Assembly (NCBI RefSeq): GCF_036511935.1
Contig: NZ_AP028878.1
Coordinates: forward strand, 682,001 to 746,000
Reading direction: 5' to 3'
Length of the DNA: 64,000 nucleotides
From: Marinobacter nanhaiticus D15-8W
GTDB taxonomy: Bacteria > Pseudomonadota > Gammaproteobacteria > Pseudomonadales > Oleiphilaceae
Positions 51,642-61,822 of the stretch are shown here, piece by piece (the first letter of the stretch is position 1; every line of letters starts with the position of its first letter). The notes under the pieces were generated by a model, which was not told the DNA's origin, searched no databases, and saw only the letters and a program-made list of their open reading frames with translations. The position numbers were made by a program, and so were the translations under genes.

Positions 51642-53072
51642 TTACAGAAGCGGGGCCAGTAGTCTGACCGCCCGGCAGGCCAGGCGGAAGGCGACGGAGC
51701 GTTCGCTGTAGTCGGCCTCGGTCATGGGGCGGCAGTGACGCAGATCCTCCTCCAGCATCTGACGGACCTCGGCAATGAAGGTCTCGTCCGTGAACAGGGC
51801 TGCAATCTCGAAATTCAGTCGCATTGAGCGATTGTCCAGGTTCGCGGTGCCAACGGCGGCGTAGCGGTCGTCCACCAAAACCACTTTCTCGTGCAGGAAT
51901 CCGGGCTGGTAGCGGTAGATGCTGATCCCCGCCTTACGGGCCTGGACAAGGTAGGAGTACGCGGCCAGGCGGACCAGTTGATGATCCGGGTTTTCCGGGA
52001 TCAGGATGCGTACGTCCACGCCCCGCAGCGCGGCCAGTTGCAGGGCGTTGACGATTTGCAGGTCGGGCACGAAATAGGGGGAAGTGATCCAGATACGCTC
52101 CCGGGCACTGTTGATGCAGTTGAGAAAGAAAAGGGTGCCGGTATCGAACCGGTCTGCCGGTCCTGTGGGCACGATCAGCACCTCTTGGTCGCCGTGAGGT
52201 GAAGGCTTGGGCGCCCAATTCAGGGCGGGCAGGTCGCTGGCGGCCCAGTACCAGTCCTCGACGAAGGCCAACTGCAAGCCCATCACTGCCGGCCCTTCGA
52301 TACGGCAGTGGGTATCGCGCCAGGCGAGCGCGTTGGACTGGGTGCCCAGGTATTCGTCACCGAGGTTGATGCCCCCGACGAACCCGAGCGTGCCGTCGCA
52401 GATCACCAGCTTGCGGTGGTTGCGGAAGTTGATCTGGAATCGTCGCCGTCGCACGTTGCCATCGCCGAAGGCTGCTACCCGGGCCCCAGCATTGGTCAGT
52501 TCCTTCAGGTAATTGCGCGACAGCCACACGCTGCCGATGTCGTCATAGATGAAGTAGACCTTGACCCCTTCAGCCAGTTTTCGCTTGAGGATCGACTTGA
52601 TGCGCTGCCCCACACGGTCCGAACGAACGATGTAGAACTCCAGCAGGATATACTGCCGGGCGCTTTCCATGGCATCGAACAGGGCGTCGAAGGTTTCCCT
52701 GCCGTCCTTTAGGAGGGTGCAGTGGTTGCCGCTGGTGAAGGGTTGGCGCACCAGGCTCGTGAGTACCCGCAGCTCCGGGCTGGGGTCGTCGGTCTTTGGG
52801 ATGCGGGTCAGTTCGTTCTCGTTCTCGAAAACGGTCAACAGCTGGTTGAGTGCCTCGTCGCCGGAGCGTCGGGCGCGAATATAGCCTGCGAAACGGTTGC
52901 GACCGAACAGCACAAACACCGGCAAAGCGACGTAGGGAAACGCGAGCAGGGCGATGATCCACGCAATGGCGCCCTGGGTCGTCCGGTAGTTCAGCAGGAT
53001 GCGAAACACCCCGAACAATGCGAGACCGTAGACGGTCCCGAGTAGCAGGGTGAGTAAGACCGGATCCCACAT
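51642..53072 (-). CDS. clsA: Cardiolipin synthase
   Basis: A 476-residue membrane enzyme that joins two phosphatidylglycerols into cardiolipin. Two N-terminal membrane helices (about 5-27, 36-56) precede two phospholipase D domains, each with an HKD motif: NHRKLVICD with GGINLGDEY, and LHEKVVLVD with GTANLDNRS. Length and layout fit ClsA. It starts at 53072 after a 176-base gap from the AraC gene on the same strand. Confidence 0.95.
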   Translation of the reverse strand: MWDPVLLTLLLGTVYGLALFGVFRILLNYRTTQGAIAWIIALLAFPYVALPVFVLFGRNRFAGYIRARRSGDEALNQLLTVFENENELTRIPKTDDPSPELRVLTSLVRQPFTSGNHCTLLKDGRETFDALFDAMESARQYILLEFYIVRSDRVGQRIKSILKRKLAEGVKVYFIYDDIGSVWLSRNYLKELTNAGARVAAFGDGNVRRRRFQINFRNHRKLVICDGTLGFVGGINLGDEYLGTQSNALAWRDTHCRIEGPAVMGLQLAFVEDWYWAASDLPALNWAPKPSPHGDQEVLIVPTGPADRFDTGTLFFLNCINSARERIWITSPYFVPDLQIVNALQLAALRGVDVRILIPENPDHQLVRLAAYSYLVQARKAGISIYRYQPGFLHEKVVLVDDRYAAVGTANLDNRSMRLNFEIAALFTDETFIAEVRQMLEEDLRHCRPMTEADYSERSVAFRLACRAVRLLAPLL

Positions 53073-53248
53073 GTTAGTGCCTCATCTGATTCATTCGCGG
53101 CCCTGCCAAGCCTCCGAGGGCCTCGTCGGCTGCATTGCGGTGGCTCGCTCTCAAATCGTACCGCCTACGGCATTGCGTCTTGGCCGGCGCTGTCAGCGAA
53201 ACGACGTGGATCAGCGAACTAACCAAATGGGACACTGGATGCTCCGGA

Positions 53249-54304
53249 TCAGTGGTGACGGGCGCGGAACTGGGCCGGCGACTCACCGGTCCAGCGCTTG
53301 AAGGCCCGGCTGAAGGCGCTCAGTTCGGAAAACCCGAGAAGGAAGGCAATTTCCCCCAGCGCGTAACGGTCAGACGCAACATACCGCAAAGCCTTGTCCT
53401 TACGCACGTGTTCCACCAGTTCCTGGAAGCTCATGCCTTCCTTCTTCAGGCGACGGTAGAGAGTCTGGCGGCTCATATGGAGCTGTTGGGCCAAACTATC
53501 GGCATCGATCCGCTCCGAGGCCATCTGCTGGGAAATCAGCCGACGTACCTTGCGGCTGAAGCGCCGGCGGGTCTGCACCTTGGCCAGCAGCGCGTTGACC
53601 TGGCGTAGCATGGCGGAATGCAGGTAGGGGTTGCGATGGGGAATCGGTCGGCTCAGGTAGTGCGCACTGAAGGCCAGGGCCGTGTCCGGCTCATTGAAGG
53701 AGATTGGACAGTCGAGAATGCGCCGATACTCGTCGGCATAGTCCGGCTCCGGGTGGCTGACGCGAACCCACGCAATATCCAGTCGTGGGTGGATGAAATG
53801 CCGGGCCCGGTTGATCGCAGCGGATAGCGTGCGGTCCATGTCCTGGCGGCAGTAGTGGTCCGGCTGGTCTACCTGCCAGGTGAGTATGGCCAGTTCATTA
53901 TCCGTCTCGAACTGCAGGTTGACGCTCTCATTGATCAGTCGGTGCAGGCGCACGTATTGCGTGGCCGCTTCGCCCAGGGTGTCGCAGTTGAAGAAAACAT
54001 GGCCCAACAGGCCCATCCGGTCCGGGTCCACCACCTCGCCCACATGGAGGCCGACGGCCGCGTCGCCGGTGACTTCCTCGGCGTGCTGCCAGAGCCGGTA
54101 GTGGCTGCAGGCGGGAATGCGCAGGTCCGGATCGCTGAGTGTGTCCAGGGGGCGGCCCAACAGGTGTTCAGCTTGGGATTTGTCGAGTTTGCCGCGGGTG
54201 TCCAGATAGTGAATCAGCCCCAGCGCCGTGGAGGCGGCTACCAACGGCTCATCCGGAGCGGGTTCGGTGTGTTGCGAAGGCGTTCGTGTGGGTGTATTCG
54301 GCAT
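53249..54304 (-). CDS. AraC-family regulator with Arabinose_bd-type sensor
   Basis: A 351-residue regulator of the OruR/ArgR-like AraC subgroup. The N-terminal two thirds are an effector domain (LGRPLDTLSDPDLRIPACSHYRLWQHAEE), and the C-terminal 100 residues hold two helix-turn-helix motifs (DSLAQQLHMSRQTLYRRLKKEG and YALGEIAFLLGFSELSAFSRAFKRWTG). The effector is unknown. It is divergent from the 30-residue micro-gene at 54468, with 163 bases between starts, so it may control that gene. Confidence 0.92.
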   Translation of the reverse strand: MPNTPTRTPSQHTEPAPDEPLVAASTALGLIHYLDTRGKLDKSQAEHLLGRPLDTLSDPDLRIPACSHYRLWQHAEEVTGDAAVGLHVGEVVDPDRMGLLGHVFFNCDTLGEAATQYVRLHRLINESVNLQFETDNELAILTWQVDQPDHYCRQDMDRTLSAAINRARHFIHPRLDIAWVRVSHPEPDYADEYRRILDCPISFNEPDTALAFSAHYLSRPIPHRNPYLHSAMLRQVNALLAKVQTRRRFSRKVRRLISQQMASERIDADSLAQQLHMSRQTLYRRLKKEGMSFQELVEHVRKDKALRYVASDRYALGEIAFLLGFSELSAFSRAFKRWTGESPAQFRARHH

Positions 54305-54406
54305 CGATATTTTTATTGGAACCTCCGAAGCGGCAGTCCCTTAAGATTCACGGGGGTGTTACGAAATGTCAAACAGTTGGGACGGAGCGTCAACGCACTG
54401 GATGGC

Positions 54407-54435
54407 TTGAACGTTTAACCTGAACGTCCTTTCAT
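54407..54435 (+). promoter_or_regulatory. Candidate promoter of the 30-residue micro-gene
   Basis: TTGAAC at 54407-54412 and TTTCAT at 54430-54435 are 17 bases apart. The -10 is weak (4 of 6 matches), consistent with an activator-dependent promoter. Confidence 0.35.
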
Positions 54436-54467
54436 GGGTTGTCTGACGTTGTCAGGAGGTGTGCAGA

Positions 54468-54560
54468 ATGGAACTTGAAATCTTTGTGCCCCGCACGGAA
54501 CTTGAACGCCGCAACTGCGAGGCTCTCAAGGACTATCTCAACAGCATCTTCTATTGCTGA
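54468..54560 (+). CDS. 30-residue micro-protein, unknown function
   Basis: A complete small gene: AGGAGGT at 54454-54460 lies seven bases before the ATG, the frame has 30 codons (MELEIFVPRTELERRN to the C-terminal LNSIFYC), and a strong terminator follows 16 bases after the stop. The product is acidic at first, has Cys17 and a terminal Cys30 in an aromatic FYC end, and has no signal peptide or membrane helix. I recognise no family. It is divergent from an AraC regulator. It could be a signalling or modified peptide or a leader peptide, though no gene follows to be attenuated. The tight signal trio makes chance unlikely. Confidence 0.7.
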   Translation: MELEIFVPRTELERRNCEALKDYLNSIFYC

Positions 54561-54575
54561 ATCCCTTCGCACGTC

Positions 54576-54599
54576 GGCCGCCGTTAGGCGGCCTTTTTT
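54576..54599 (+). terminator. Rho-independent terminator of the micro-gene
   Basis: GGCCGCC and GGCGGCC form a perfect 7-bp stem with a GTTA loop, followed by six T. Confidence 0.9.
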
Positions 54600-54620
54600 A
54601 GTCCCTTTCCCAGTGCCGCT

Positions 54621-55076
54621 TTATACCTGCTCCGCAAGACCGTGGATGTTCTCCAAAGGCTGCAGGCGTAGACGCAGTTTTTCGCTCCGCTCGAGAATGC
54701 CTTCAATACGGCCTAATTGAGCGCGGGTTTGCTGCGAACGCATCAGGCGGCTGCCGGTGAAGTCGAAGGCAAGACCGAAGCGGGTGAGGCTGCTGTCTCC
54801 CTCCAACGGACGTTCGTTCACGACCTCGGCAATCAGGCGTTCCAGGCTGATGCTGCTGGCCGTCATTGTCAGTTGCAGCCTCAATTCAACCCGATCGCCG
54901 ATCTGGAAGGTATCCGCCTTCTCGGTAATGGAGAGTCCCTCACGGGTAAAGTCGTGACTTTGCGTCGGCGTATAGCCGCCGAACAGGGCCTTTCGGGGGC
55001 GCCAGGCCGCGTGCAGCTCTGCCGCGGGTAGCCGGCGAAAGCGGCGGCGCTCCTGATTCTTGCTGGGTGTCTCCAT
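54621..55076 (-). CDS. PilZ-domain protein
   Basis: A 151-residue protein that probably binds c-di-GMP. The N-terminal RxxxR is present (Arg10-Arg15 in ERRRFRR), and the second motif reads Asp42-Phe-Thr-Arg-Glu-Gly47, with Thr in place of the usual Ser of (D/N)xSxxG. Beta strands and a final helix (RIEGILERSEKLRLRLQPLE) follow. It is transcribed towards the micro-gene terminator. With the cyclases and phosphodiesterases in the window, it forms an output component for c-di-GMP, though its target is unknown. Confidence 0.85.
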   Translation of the reverse strand: METPSKNQERRRFRRLPAAELHAAWRPRKALFGGYTPTQSHDFTREGLSITEKADTFQIGDRVELRLQLTMTASSISLERLIAEVVNERPLEGDSSLTRFGLAFDFTGSRLMRSQQTRAQLGRIEGILERSEKLRLRLQPLENIHGLAEQV

Positions 55077-55348
55077 GGATAGGTCATCCTTTTTTCTTCG
55101 CGTTCTTCTTATCGGTGCGCCTCTTATCGATGCGTCCGGGACAGGGCCTTTCGTTATCCTGACATTCCGCCCAACAATAGCAAACTACCTCGGGCATGAG
55201 CGGGCCGTCCTGCCGGATGGTCGGCAGGTGTCAGTCAAGGGATCACGGCATCTCCCTGTTATCGACTGGAAAAGTATGCTCATATTGCCGGGCTGTGTCC
55301 GTGAAGCTCTGTTTGGGGCGGACTTGATGAATTGCCGGAGGACGTGAC
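55077..55348. other. Intergenic region between the PilZ and DUF1722-like genes
   Basis: 272 bp with no convincing gene, repeat or terminator. It should hold the divergent promoters of both neighbours. GGAGG at 55337-55341 belongs to the plus-strand gene. Confidence 0.4.
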
Positions 55349-56032
55349 TTGATTCAGAAAAACAGGATATTCGATCTCGATGCCGGCTTCCTCGATGACG
55401 AGCTGCTGGCTGGCCAGATGCGGTTGCTGGTCGGGTTGGTCAGTACTGATCGGGCCCGTAGCGCCGGTGATCGTCTGCCGCTGGAATGGCAGGGGCACGA
55501 AGATGCCCTGACCCTGCGTCTCAACCAATTGATGGGCGAGATGACGCTTCGGGGCATGGCCGTTCCCGGCGAGGTCAAGGTGACTACCGAAGCGATCATC
55601 TGGCCGCCGCTGGCGCATCAGGCGCTGAAAGACGAGATTCGTTACATTGCCGACCGGGTAGCCGAGGGCAAGAAAGGGCGCATTCGTCTACCAAAGAACG
55701 ACCACGAACTCTGGGCCACCTACAAATACAGTTTACTGGCGCGCAACCGCCAGGCGTACGAGAGTTTCGGCCGGCGCGTCGCCTCGCGATCGGTGCCGCT
55801 GGAGCTGCTCTGGCTGGCGATGGTCAATGCCTCCCGCGTGGCACCGCCGGAGGGAGGAGTTCGCAATTCGCTGCAGCATATGTGGGGCTATGTGTCGGAA
55901 CATGCCACGCTGAGTCCGCAGATTGAGGATCTCGATGCCCTCGCGGCCGAAGTGCAACAGCTGGCCCGGACACATGAAGTTCCCTACCTGATCAATTCAA
56001 CGGCGCTGGGTGAACTCCGCGCCTGGCTTTAA
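55349..56032 (+). CDS. Hypothetical protein, DUF1722-like C-terminal part
   Basis: A 227-residue cytoplasmic protein starting at TTG 55349, supported by GGAGG seven bases upstream. Its C-terminal half (ELWATYKYSLLARNRQAYESFGRRV, then NSLQHMWGYVSEHATLS and a VPYLINSTALGEL end) resembles the YbgA/DUF1722 family, which is linked to DNA-repair genes in some genomes; the N-terminal part (IFDLDAGFLDDELLAGQMRLLVG) loosely recalls pyrimidine-dimer glycosylases. Both are from memory and tentative. It ends 11 bases before ybfF, probably on the same transcript. Confidence 0.65.
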   Translation: MIQKNRIFDLDAGFLDDELLAGQMRLLVGLVSTDRARSAGDRLPLEWQGHEDALTLRLNQLMGEMTLRGMAVPGEVKVTTEAIIWPPLAHQALKDEIRYIADRVAEGKKGRIRLPKNDHELWATYKYSLLARNRQAYESFGRRVASRSVPLELLWLAMVNASRVAPPEGGVRNSLQHMWGYVSEHATLSPQIEDLDALAAEVQQLARTHEVPYLINSTALGELRAWL

Positions 56033-56042
56033 GGAGACGATC

Positions 56043-56822
56043 ATGAGTCTCGATCTCCATCATCGAGTGGTTGGGGAGGGTGACCCCCTGATCCTGCTGC
56101 ACGGTCTGTTCGGTTCCCTGGAGAACCTGGGTGGTGTTACCCAACGCTTGTCGGACACCTGGCAGGTTCACGCGCTGGATCTTCGCAACCACGGCCGCTC
56201 GCCCCACGTAGAGGATATGGGCTATCCGGCAATGGCGGATGACGTCTTGCGCTACCTGGATAGTCAGGGCATTGACCAGGCGGCGGTGCTCGGGCATTCC
56301 ATGGGTGGAAAAACGGCGATGGAGCTGGCGCTGGCGCACCCGGATCGGGTTGGACGACTGATCGTGGCGGACATCTCGCCGGTGCCCTACCCACCGCATC
56401 ACGATGCGATTATCGACGGGCTGACCGGATTGAACCTTGCGTCCGTCAAATCCCGCGGGGACGCAGACAAGTGGCTGGCAAAGTATGTGGAGACTCCAGC
56501 GGTGCGTCAGTTTCTGCTAAAGAACCTGGTGCGCACTGACGAAGGGGGCTTTGGCTGGCGGATCAACCTGGAGGCCATCGAGCGGGACTACCCGCAGATC
56601 GCCGAAGGCCCGACGGCCCAAGGGCCCTACGAGGGACCGACACTCTTCCTGAAGGGCGGCGAATCCAACTACATCCAGGACAGCCACCGTGACACGGTGG
56701 CGCGTCTCTTCCCCCACGCAGTGTTGCGGATCATCCCGGGCACCGGCCACTGGCTGCATGCGGAAAAGGCCGACCTGTTTGCCAAGCTGTGCCGCCGCTT
56801 CCTGGACGGCGAGTTCGATTAG
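56043..56822 (+). CDS. ybfF: Alpha/beta hydrolase of YbfF esterase type
   Basis: A 259-residue cytoplasmic esterase with the lid-less fold of YbfF, acting on short acyl esters and thioesters. The oxyanion motif LLHGLFGSLENL, the DLRNHGRS strand, nucleophile Ser86 in GHSMGG, and the C-terminal GTGHWLHAEKAD with the catalytic His are present. AAGGAG lies six bases before ATG 56043. Its last four bases overlap the stop of a minus-strand small gene. Confidence 0.92.
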   Translation: MSLDLHHRVVGEGDPLILLHGLFGSLENLGGVTQRLSDTWQVHALDLRNHGRSPHVEDMGYPAMADDVLRYLDSQGIDQAAVLGHSMGGKTAMELALAHPDRVGRLIVADISPVPYPPHHDAIIDGLTGLNLASVKSRGDADKWLAKYVETPAVRQFLLKNLVRTDEGGFGWRINLEAIERDYPQIAEGPTAQGPYEGPTLFLKGGESNYIQDSHRDTVARLFPHAVLRIIPGTGHWLHAEKADLFAKLCRRFLDGEFD

Positions 56823-59962: not shown

Positions 59963-61822
59963 TCAGGCCTGGGCGGTCGTGGCGCCGGTCGGCTGTTCTG
60001 GCCCGGCTTCTTTCTCTTTACGTTCCTTCGGTTTCTGCGGCGGAACCAGGCTCACCAGTACCCAACCCTTCTCCGGCTTGAGATTGTTCTCCGCGGTCAC
60101 GGCGTAAATGCGTTCCCGTGGATCGATCACGAACAGCACGATGGCCTGATGCTCGTATTGGTTCTGGAAGTTCTCGTAGGTGAACGCTTCGCTGAGCTGC
60201 GTGGTCTTCACCGTGTAACCTTTGCTCACCATGCTGGCCAGCTTGGCGTAGCTCATGTCGCCGAACAAGCCGCGGGTCTGCTGGATCTTCTCCGCAGTCT
60301 GGTGGCGGGCCTTCTGGTCCTGATCGCCCTCGGACAGGCTGTAAACGCTGCCGTTGCCGAACCAGTCGAGGAAGTGATATGTCGCCAGTGAGTTGAGCTG
60401 CTTATAGGGCGAGATCACAAGCAGGTTGCCGATGCCGGTCAGATCCAGGTGGGTGGAGGCATGCTCCGATACCGGGTTGCCGAAGTACACCTGCAGGTTA
60501 TCCATGCGAGCCTGGCGTACGTTTTCCCAGTTGGTATCGGTCAAGACCACCGGTACTTCCACCTTCTGCAGTGCCTGGCCGATCTGGCGGGCGACACTGT
60601 TGGCCCCGAGGATCAGGAAGCCATAGTCCGCGGGCTCCGCCACCTTGAGCAGACGCGCCACCGGCCGTGCCGTAAGACTCTGCAGTGTGACGGTGGTGAT
60701 GATTACCATGAACACCAGCGGTACCAGCACGCCGGCGCTTTCGTAGCCGATGTTTTGCAGCTGGAAGGCAAACAACGCGGACACTGCAGCAGCAACGATA
60801 CCCCGCGGCGCGACCCAGCTCAGGAAAAGCTTCTCCCGCCAGTTCAGGGTCGTGCCGATCGCCGAGAGGAAGATACTCGCCGGTCGCGCCACCAACAGCA
60901 ACGCGATCAGCACGACCACCAGACCCCAGCCCAGTTCGGCAATGGCGGAGAATTCCACCCGTGCGGCAAGGATAATGAACAGGGCGGAAATCAAAAGGAC
61001 GCTCAGGGATTCCTTGAATTCCAGGATACTCTCGATCGGTACCTGCTTCATATTGGCCATCCAGATCCCCATCACCGTGACGGTCAGCAGACCGGATTCG
61101 TGGGCCATCTCGTTGGATAGGGCATAGACGCCAAGCATAAAGGTGAGTGTGCCGGCATTGTGCAGGTATTGCGGAACCAGGTGCTTGCGTAGGGCAATGC
61201 CGGTGAGCCAGCCGGCGGCGGCTCCCAGGATGGTGCCGATGGCGATCGTCTTGCCGAAGATGTAGAGGGAATGGCCGAAAACGTTGCCCTGGCCCCAGGA
61301 GACGATCCCCTCGAACACCAGGACCGCGAGCAAGGCGCCCACCGGGTCGATGATAATCCCTTCCCAGCGCAGGATGTTGGCCAGCTTGGCCGCAGGTTTG
61401 ACGGTGCGTAGCAGCGGTGCGATGACCGTGGGGCCGGTCACCACTGAAATGGCGCCGAACAGCAAGGCGACCTCCCACGATATATCGAGCGCCCAGCGTG
61501 CGGCCAGCGTACCCACAGCCCAGGTGACAAGCGATCCCACCGGCACAAGGTTGCGGACCATCTTGCCATGGCCCTTTATCTCGGCGTAGTCGAGGGTGAG
61601 GCTGCCTTCGAATAGAATGACGGCCACCGCCAGGGATACCAGCGGGAACAACAAGTCACCGAAAAGGAGTTGGGGCTCCAGCCAGTTAAGGAGTGGACCG
61701 GCGGCAATACCGCCCGCAAGCAGGAACAGGATGGCAGGCATACGCACTCGCCAGGCCAGCCATTGGCAAAACAGGGACAGTACGCCGATGCTCGCGAGTA
61801 GGAGGACGATGTTCTCTGACAT
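59963..61822 (-). CDS. CPA1-type Na+/H+ or K+/H+ antiporter with TrkA-N domain
   Basis: A 619-residue inner-membrane antiporter with about 12 helices. The ion-binding region is suggested by VAVILFEGSLTLDY and the Asp in the IIIDPVGALLAVLVFEG helix. A cytoplasmic TrkA-N-like domain (about 415-520, FLILGANSVARQIGQAL) can bind NAD(H) and gate transport. A charged, Pro-rich tail of 25 residues ends the protein. Which ion it moves cannot be told. The start at 61822 fits the first helix. It lies downstream of tcdA on the same strand, 126 bases apart. Confidence 0.93.
   Translation of the reverse strand: MSENIVLLLASIGVLSLFCQWLAWRVRMPAILFLLAGGIAAGPLLNWLEPQLLFGDLLFPLVSLAVAVILFEGSLTLDYAEIKGHGKMVRNLVPVGSLVTWAVGTLAARWALDISWEVALLFGAISVVTGPTVIAPLLRTVKPAAKLANILRWEGIIIDPVGALLAVLVFEGIVSWGQGNVFGHSLYIFGKTIAIGTILGAAAGWLTGIALRKHLVPQYLHNAGTLTFMLGVYALSNEMAHESGLLTVTVMGIWMANMKQVPIESILEFKESLSVLLISALFIILAARVEFSAIAELGWGLVVVLIALLLVARPASIFLSAIGTTLNWREKLFLSWVAPRGIVAAAVSALFAFQLQNIGYESAGVLVPLVFMVIITTVTLQSLTARPVARLLKVAEPADYGFLILGANSVARQIGQALQKVEVPVVLTDTNWENVRQARMDNLQVYFGNPVSEHASTHLDLTGIGNLLVISPYKQLNSLATYHFLDWFGNGSVYSLSEGDQDQKARHQTAEKIQQTRGLFGDMSYAKLASMVSKGYTVKTTQLSEAFTYENFQNQYEHQAIVLFVIDPRERIYAVTAENNLKPEKGWVLVSLVPPQKPKERKEKEAGPEQPTGATTAQA

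Follow-up and report, generated by a model that had tools for sequence, protein, structure and literature searches.

The window, a 64,000-nucleotide stretch of the Marinobacter nanhaiticus D15-8W genome, carries a very small gene on its plus strand (54468..54560) that consists of 30 codons and a TGA stop (54558-54560) and that we recognized from its open reading frame (ORF), its relatives, signs of selection, and profile matches. The ATG at 54468 lies 7 nt after the Shine-Dalgarno sequence AGGAGGT (54454-54460, plus strand), which is apparent both in the sequence and in the comparison of loci, and the frame encodes the 30-residue microprotein MELEIFVPRTELERRNCEALKDYLNSIFYC. Downstream on the same strand is an intrinsic terminator (54576-54599) in which a hairpin of 7 GC pairs, GGCCGCC-GTTA-GGCGGCC, is followed by six T residues (TTTTTT). 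All of these elements are exactly as given in the initial annotation, and its view that they form an autonomous micro-gene rather than a fragment of a larger gene is borne out, with no Pfam or NCBIfam family fitting the product. The unit extends further upstream than was proposed there, to a conserved promoter at 54364-54421. This region contains a candidate operator, a 21-bp direct repeat (54364..54394, plus strand) with GTCAA at 54368-54372 and 54389-54393, and a candidate -10 box, TAACCT (54416..54421, plus strand), that starts 22 nt past the second half-site. A simple scan of 53000-56000 for the sigma-70 consensus detected no promoter; the promoter is visible by comparison only.

Divergent from the microgene, on the minus strand (53249..54304), lies an ORF for a 351-aa AraC-family regulator with Pfam matches to Arabinose_bd (5.4e-40), HTH_18 (1.5e-21), and HTH_AraC (9.9e-15); the gene has the C-terminal double helix-turn-helix domain by which AraC/XylS regulators are defined. 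Its nearest NCBIfam model is QhpR, with which it shares the Arabinose_bd (PF12625) domain layout. Since it scored 233.8 bits against a cutoff of 250, however, it was not assigned to QhpR. The surrounding genes encode a cardiolipin synthase (51642-53072, NCBIfam match above the cutoff), a small PilZ-like protein (54621-55076, Pfam E value of 3.7e-5), a protein with weak Pfam matches only (DUF1722 and Pyr_excise; 55349-56032), and an esterase-like protein (56043-56822, below the NCBIfam cutoff). The next gene 3' of the microgene is on the minus strand. The neighbor at 55349-56032 is kept in several genera.

A profile search found the microgene in 130 of 151 genomes of the family and in all 16 of the genera sampled; every one of these matches was free of inner stops, although a broken copy might escape the profile. 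A single-sequence search was less sensitive: it gave matches in 27 of 58 relatives' genomes and missed 10 of 37 family genomes, 7 of which carry the microgene beside AraC. When the whole order was sampled, 19 of 390 genomes had the microgene, and outside the family it was restricted to two family-f7 genomes with 4 and 3 copies (G042 and G084, respectively) and one f3 genome with a single copy (G038). The copies in the two f7 genomes (L049, L050, and L052 to L056) are divergent, and one per genome has the AraC-type repeat. A sample of 369 genomes from the class gave a match in the window's own genome only (1/369). A phage or plasmid origin was rejected, as each search returned one chance-level match (E values of 0.6 and 4) and viral contigs returned none. 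Judging from AraC identities, the large genus designated g13 probably corresponds to Marinobacter sensu stricto.

Sequence comparison indicates that the microgene is a real protein gene under purifying selection. The pN/pS ratio was 0.28 in frame versus 1.49 and 1.29 in the shifted frames, the minor-base frequency rose from 0.13 and 0.14 at the first and second codon positions to 0.37 at the third, and the median dN/dS was 0.14 over 188 unsaturated pairs, with values of 0 to 0.59 among the 15 closest pairs listed (these selection figures come from 25 distinct sequences, with 13 of 38 loci left out). The dN/dS across orthologues, which the initial annotation had named as a check, thus points to purifying selection, and the pattern that it had named as evidence against the gene, namely, a retained terminator with a lost frame, was not encountered in the loci compared. 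A terminator-like hairpin was found no more than 130 nt from the stop in 41 of 50 loci, relative to 3.6% of base-shuffled controls. At the level of sequence, there is thus good support for a microgene that encodes a protein, is conserved, and has a promoter layout and a terminator of its own. A chance ORF was rejected given the matches in relatives (27/58 and 130/151) and the purifying selection.

The microgene is accompanied by the AraC gene in most genomes. Of the 27 loci from the single-sequence search, 23 have an AraC homologue, at identities down to 35%, no more than 1.5 kb from the microgene. The remaining 4 loci all belong to genus g8, where AraC is ~6 kb away and is separated from the microgene by two genes (587 and 1221 to 1223 aa) that, from inspection by eye, we take to be tamA/tamB-like (L109 and L110). 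When AraC presence was scored at a cutoff of E 1e-60 in the 151 genomes, 127 had both genes, 3 had the microgene only (G027, G793, and G817), 1 had AraC only (G836), and 20 had neither (P = 9e-21, Fisher test, which ignores the relatedness of the genomes). Adjacency makes joint loss easy, and losses among related genomes may not be independent. The cardiolipin synthase and esterase genes directly adjoin in seven of eight genomes without the pair, which implies that the two genes tend to disappear together as a module; at the eighth locus (L112), a C-terminal remnant of AraC and another gene lie between. Two genomes show the microgene persisting without an intact regulator: G817 retains the microgene and the repeat next to an AraC remnant (~50 residues matched), and G793 has lost both AraC and the repeat while keeping the microgene with its ribosome site. 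The microprotein can therefore outlive AraC, which speaks against inhibition of AraC being its sole role. The third such genome, G027 (85% complete), has only a divergent copy, with neither AraC nor the repeat.

The candidate operator was also conserved. GTCAA-N16-GTCAA, followed 21 or 22 nt on by TANNNT, was present upstream of the microgene in 49 of 49 loci, a set that includes near-identical loci and from which L047 was removed as a duplicate. Among three further loci, L104 has the repeat and L105 and L106 lack it, and 6 of 8 distant copies are without such a repeat. The g8 genomes separate the two genes, and there the repeat stays with the microgene, with none in the stretch examined around the AraC gene, which argues that the microgene, rather than AraC itself, is the target. 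In g13, a site with 0 or 1 mismatch was found in 52 of 61 genomes, 48 of which carry only that site (a reversed control pattern with up to 2 mismatches gave 18 matches in 17 of the 61). Six of the nine site-less g13 genomes lack both the microgene and AraC, G793 has the microgene without AraC, and the other two, G802 and G810 (84% and 62% complete), were outside the presence sample. The window's own genome yielded one site with the strict repeat pattern plus one match with 3 mismatches. Given the co-occurrence, the 49/49 repeat, and the g8 arrangement, control of the microgene by the adjacent AraC, which had been suggested from the divergent gene order, is very likely. We infer that AraC binds the repeat and activates the microgene.

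Alignment of 37 microprotein sequences showed that E13, L20, and Y23 are invariant (37/37), that N16 is present in 36, and that 34 have S, T, or N at position 10; the last of these, together with the invariant E13, we take to be a helix capping box. AlphaFold2 predicted an extended IFVPH arm and one helix, with residues 1 to 10 lacking secondary structure and residues 11 to 27 helical (mean pLDDT of 90), although a helix model of 30 residues says little about function. Since the periodicity of conservation along residues 10 to 30 has its maximum at 100 degrees per residue (P = 0.014, permutation), one helix face appears to be constrained; the hydrophobic moment is weaker (P = 0.09). Scans of the 37 members against Pfam and NCBIfam returned stray matches only (best E values of 0.017 and 0.09, respectively), consistent with the earlier impression that the protein fits no known family in these collections. 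A metal site built on its two cysteines was not supported, as neither is conserved: C17 occurs in 9 of 37 sequences and C30 in 25 of 37, and the other sequences have residues such as W, A, G, and I instead. A cysteine or metal role was accordingly rejected.

We scanned 28 genomes with the promoter pattern, and 24 matched with no more than 1 mismatch; the reversed control pattern gave 17 matches in 14 of the 28. There were 46 matches, 25 of them exact, and the exact matches lay before microgenes (19), before fabA (5), or at a contig end (1). Given the control background, the remaining 21 one-mismatch matches were mostly left aside. Exact matches head a fabA-fabB-fabV cluster in G012, G024, G029, and G084, and a fabA-type gene is also found behind one in G011. 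The cluster includes a fused acetyl-CoA carboxylase of ~1500 aa, with which fabA, fabB, and fabV make up a compact fatty acid synthesis module (family scans covered one g8 cluster and parts of that in G084). The same cluster is near an AraC paralogue in G034, G032, and G042, and the same promoter layout recurs at the AraC-paralogue-linked cluster in g8, G042, and G084. A span of 13.5 kb in G084 takes in AraC, the fab cluster, and the microgene promoter. The six cluster-linked AraC genes form one clade (96/96), which also contains G015b and G836a and lies among the microgene-linked genes, in a tree in which some branches are long and deeper forks were left open.

L119, L120, L121, L122, L125, L145, and L147 carry fabA-fabB-fabV and the ~1500-aa carboxylase, mostly with an AraC paralogue nearby. 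Domain scans of L119 and L125 showed that the carboxylase unites biotin carboxylase, biotin, and carboxyltransferase domains in a single protein. At L148 (G015), fabA and the fused carboxylase are together with no fabB or fabV between them, and a one-mismatch promoter is upstream. In G836 (L108:162, the same as L149:1662), a promoter with 13 of 13 core positions precedes a 562-aa ORF beside an AraC paralogue, and no microgene was detected in that genome.

We also analyzed 19 regions upstream of fabA, obtained from matches in 18 of 25 genomes. Seven had 13 of 13 core positions and 3 had 12, whereas 12 or more occurred in 0 of 950 shuffles. The promoter scan had picked up five of these ten regions before (those of G011, G012, G084, G014, and G015a), which leaves only five as independent evidence. 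When the window's genus was excluded from the training of a weight matrix, 8 of the 19 regions scored above the top of 1900 shuffles (10.7 bits). The fabA region of the window's own genome has 13 of 13 core positions but scored 4.9 bits, whereas shuffles of the same region reach 6.4, and the fabA regions of the four g13 genomes examined (G036, G031, G017, and G793) scored below zero. The fatty acid link is thus firm in some genera, but in the genome that the window comes from it is no more than suggestive. The claim that the microgene is the single target of AraC was given up, owing to the complete core upstream of the own-genome fabA, marginal as it is by weight matrix. Within the window, a 12-bit matrix match at ~61407 on the minus strand lies inside an ORF (59963-61822) and is probably due to chance.

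Taken together, these comparisons make it plausible that the microgene is part of a fatty acid regulon. Regulators of bacterial fatty acid synthesis such as FabR, DesT, and FadR are of the TetR or GntR type, whereas the regulator here is of the AraC type and apparently has the microgene among its targets. What links it to fatty acid synthesis is that, in some genera, fabA-fabB genes are accompanied by related AraC paralogues and the same promoter layout.

The best explanation as a whole, to which we give an even chance, is that of an AraC-activated microprotein that responds to a fatty acid-related signal and docks on a partner by its helix. The locus would be a transcription unit of a single gene, whose 30-residue product is specific to the lineage. 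AraC, encoded divergently, would bind the 21-bp direct repeat, which abuts the -35 position, and would activate the microgene on a signal that is probably fatty acid related. The capped helix (residues 11 to 27) would then dock on a protein partner through its conserved face (E13, N16, L20, Y23, and I27), and the microprotein would most likely tune fatty acid synthesis or membrane lipid balance. We infer the signal, the partner, and the effect, and hence the role of a fatty acid-linked effector that docks by its helix; that the helix docks on a lipid synthesis enzyme or on a regulator is a guess. A bolder and rather unlikely version would have a fatty acid-sensing AraC command a 30-residue protein that directly regulates FabA, FabB, or acetyl-CoA carboxylase via its single helix. 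It would then act on membrane lipid composition as a minimal switch at the protein level in marine bacteria of the Marinobacter family.

Proteins of ~30 residues are easily overlooked by annotation, and no literature on the microgene was found among the matches listed, judged by titles and the starts of abstracts (the best 15 of 674 in one case), with most subscription papers outside the scope. Since the microgene comes with a promoter layout, a candidate operator, a regulator, and a terminator of its own and occurs in 16/16 sampled genera, it offers a clean case of a regulator seemingly devoted largely to a microprotein. The fatty acid link suggests a function that can be tested, and it may hint that membrane lipid synthesis in Marinobacter and its kin is subject to a new layer of control.

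The main rival is a feedback loop like that of the ANR family, in which AraC would activate the microgene and the microprotein would bind AraC and damp it. Tight co-occurrence with AraC speaks for such a loop, as does the case of Aar: AggR is reported to activate Aar, which down-regulates AggR (PMC4038620, PMC5570504), and Aar is reported to interact directly with AggR and HNS (PMC10148876). Like ANR proteins, the microprotein is very small and apparently made under an AraC-type activator, and its last residue is Cys in 25 of 37 rows, reminiscent of the conserved ANR Cys reported at position 60 of Aar (PMC4038620). In contrast, the same source describes ANR members as proteins of 39 to 80 aa with three predicted helices (PMC4038620), whereas the window's microprotein has 30 aa and, in the model, one helix at residues 11 to 27. 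Its relatives span ~28 to 43 aa (the start codons being our choice), so that the longest overlap the ANR range; the window's microprotein differs in size and helix count, and the NCBIfam and Pfam scans, whose libraries may or may not include an ANR model, gave it no family. Its persistence next to the AraC remnant in G817, and without AraC and the repeat in G793, speaks against an exclusive ANR-type role, and six distant copies lack the repeat. We regard ANR-like feedback as unlikely, though it ranks first among the alternatives.

It is quite improbable that RNA is the main product, as a dual-function or base-pairing small RNA (sRNA) with the peptide being minor. The predicted transcript is short with a strong terminator, its folding z-score is -2.0, and a match to isrD, an Hfq-binding family, surrounds the terminator, albeit at a subthreshold 24.3 bits versus 37; this was the best match in an Rfam scan that found no sRNA at the gathering score. 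The concentration of variation at third codon positions and the pN/pS of 0.28, however, denote selection at the protein level. A precursor of a modified, metal-binding, or signaling peptide is very improbable: the C terminus is aromatic in most rows and C30 is the last residue in 25 of 37, but other rows end differently (with W, A, G, I, N, F, or R), C17 is present in 9 of 37, and no modifying enzyme was recognized among the neighbors scanned. Nor did the flanking genes scanned give positive evidence for a signaling or modified peptide. Hardly credible is an attenuator leader peptide (or a chance ORF): a short ORF does precede a terminator, and in g13 an esterase-like gene lies past it in the same orientation (e.g., L008 and L029), but the gene that comes next in the window is on the opposite strand, and different genera have different downstream genes while the peptide stays under purifying selection.

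Relative to these alternatives, we favor the AraC-activated, helix-docking effector. As a minor observation, G034 carries a near-identical second copy of this promoter behind a 1184-aa gene where a contig ends (L123:3852), which may reflect a duplication of the microgene promoter.
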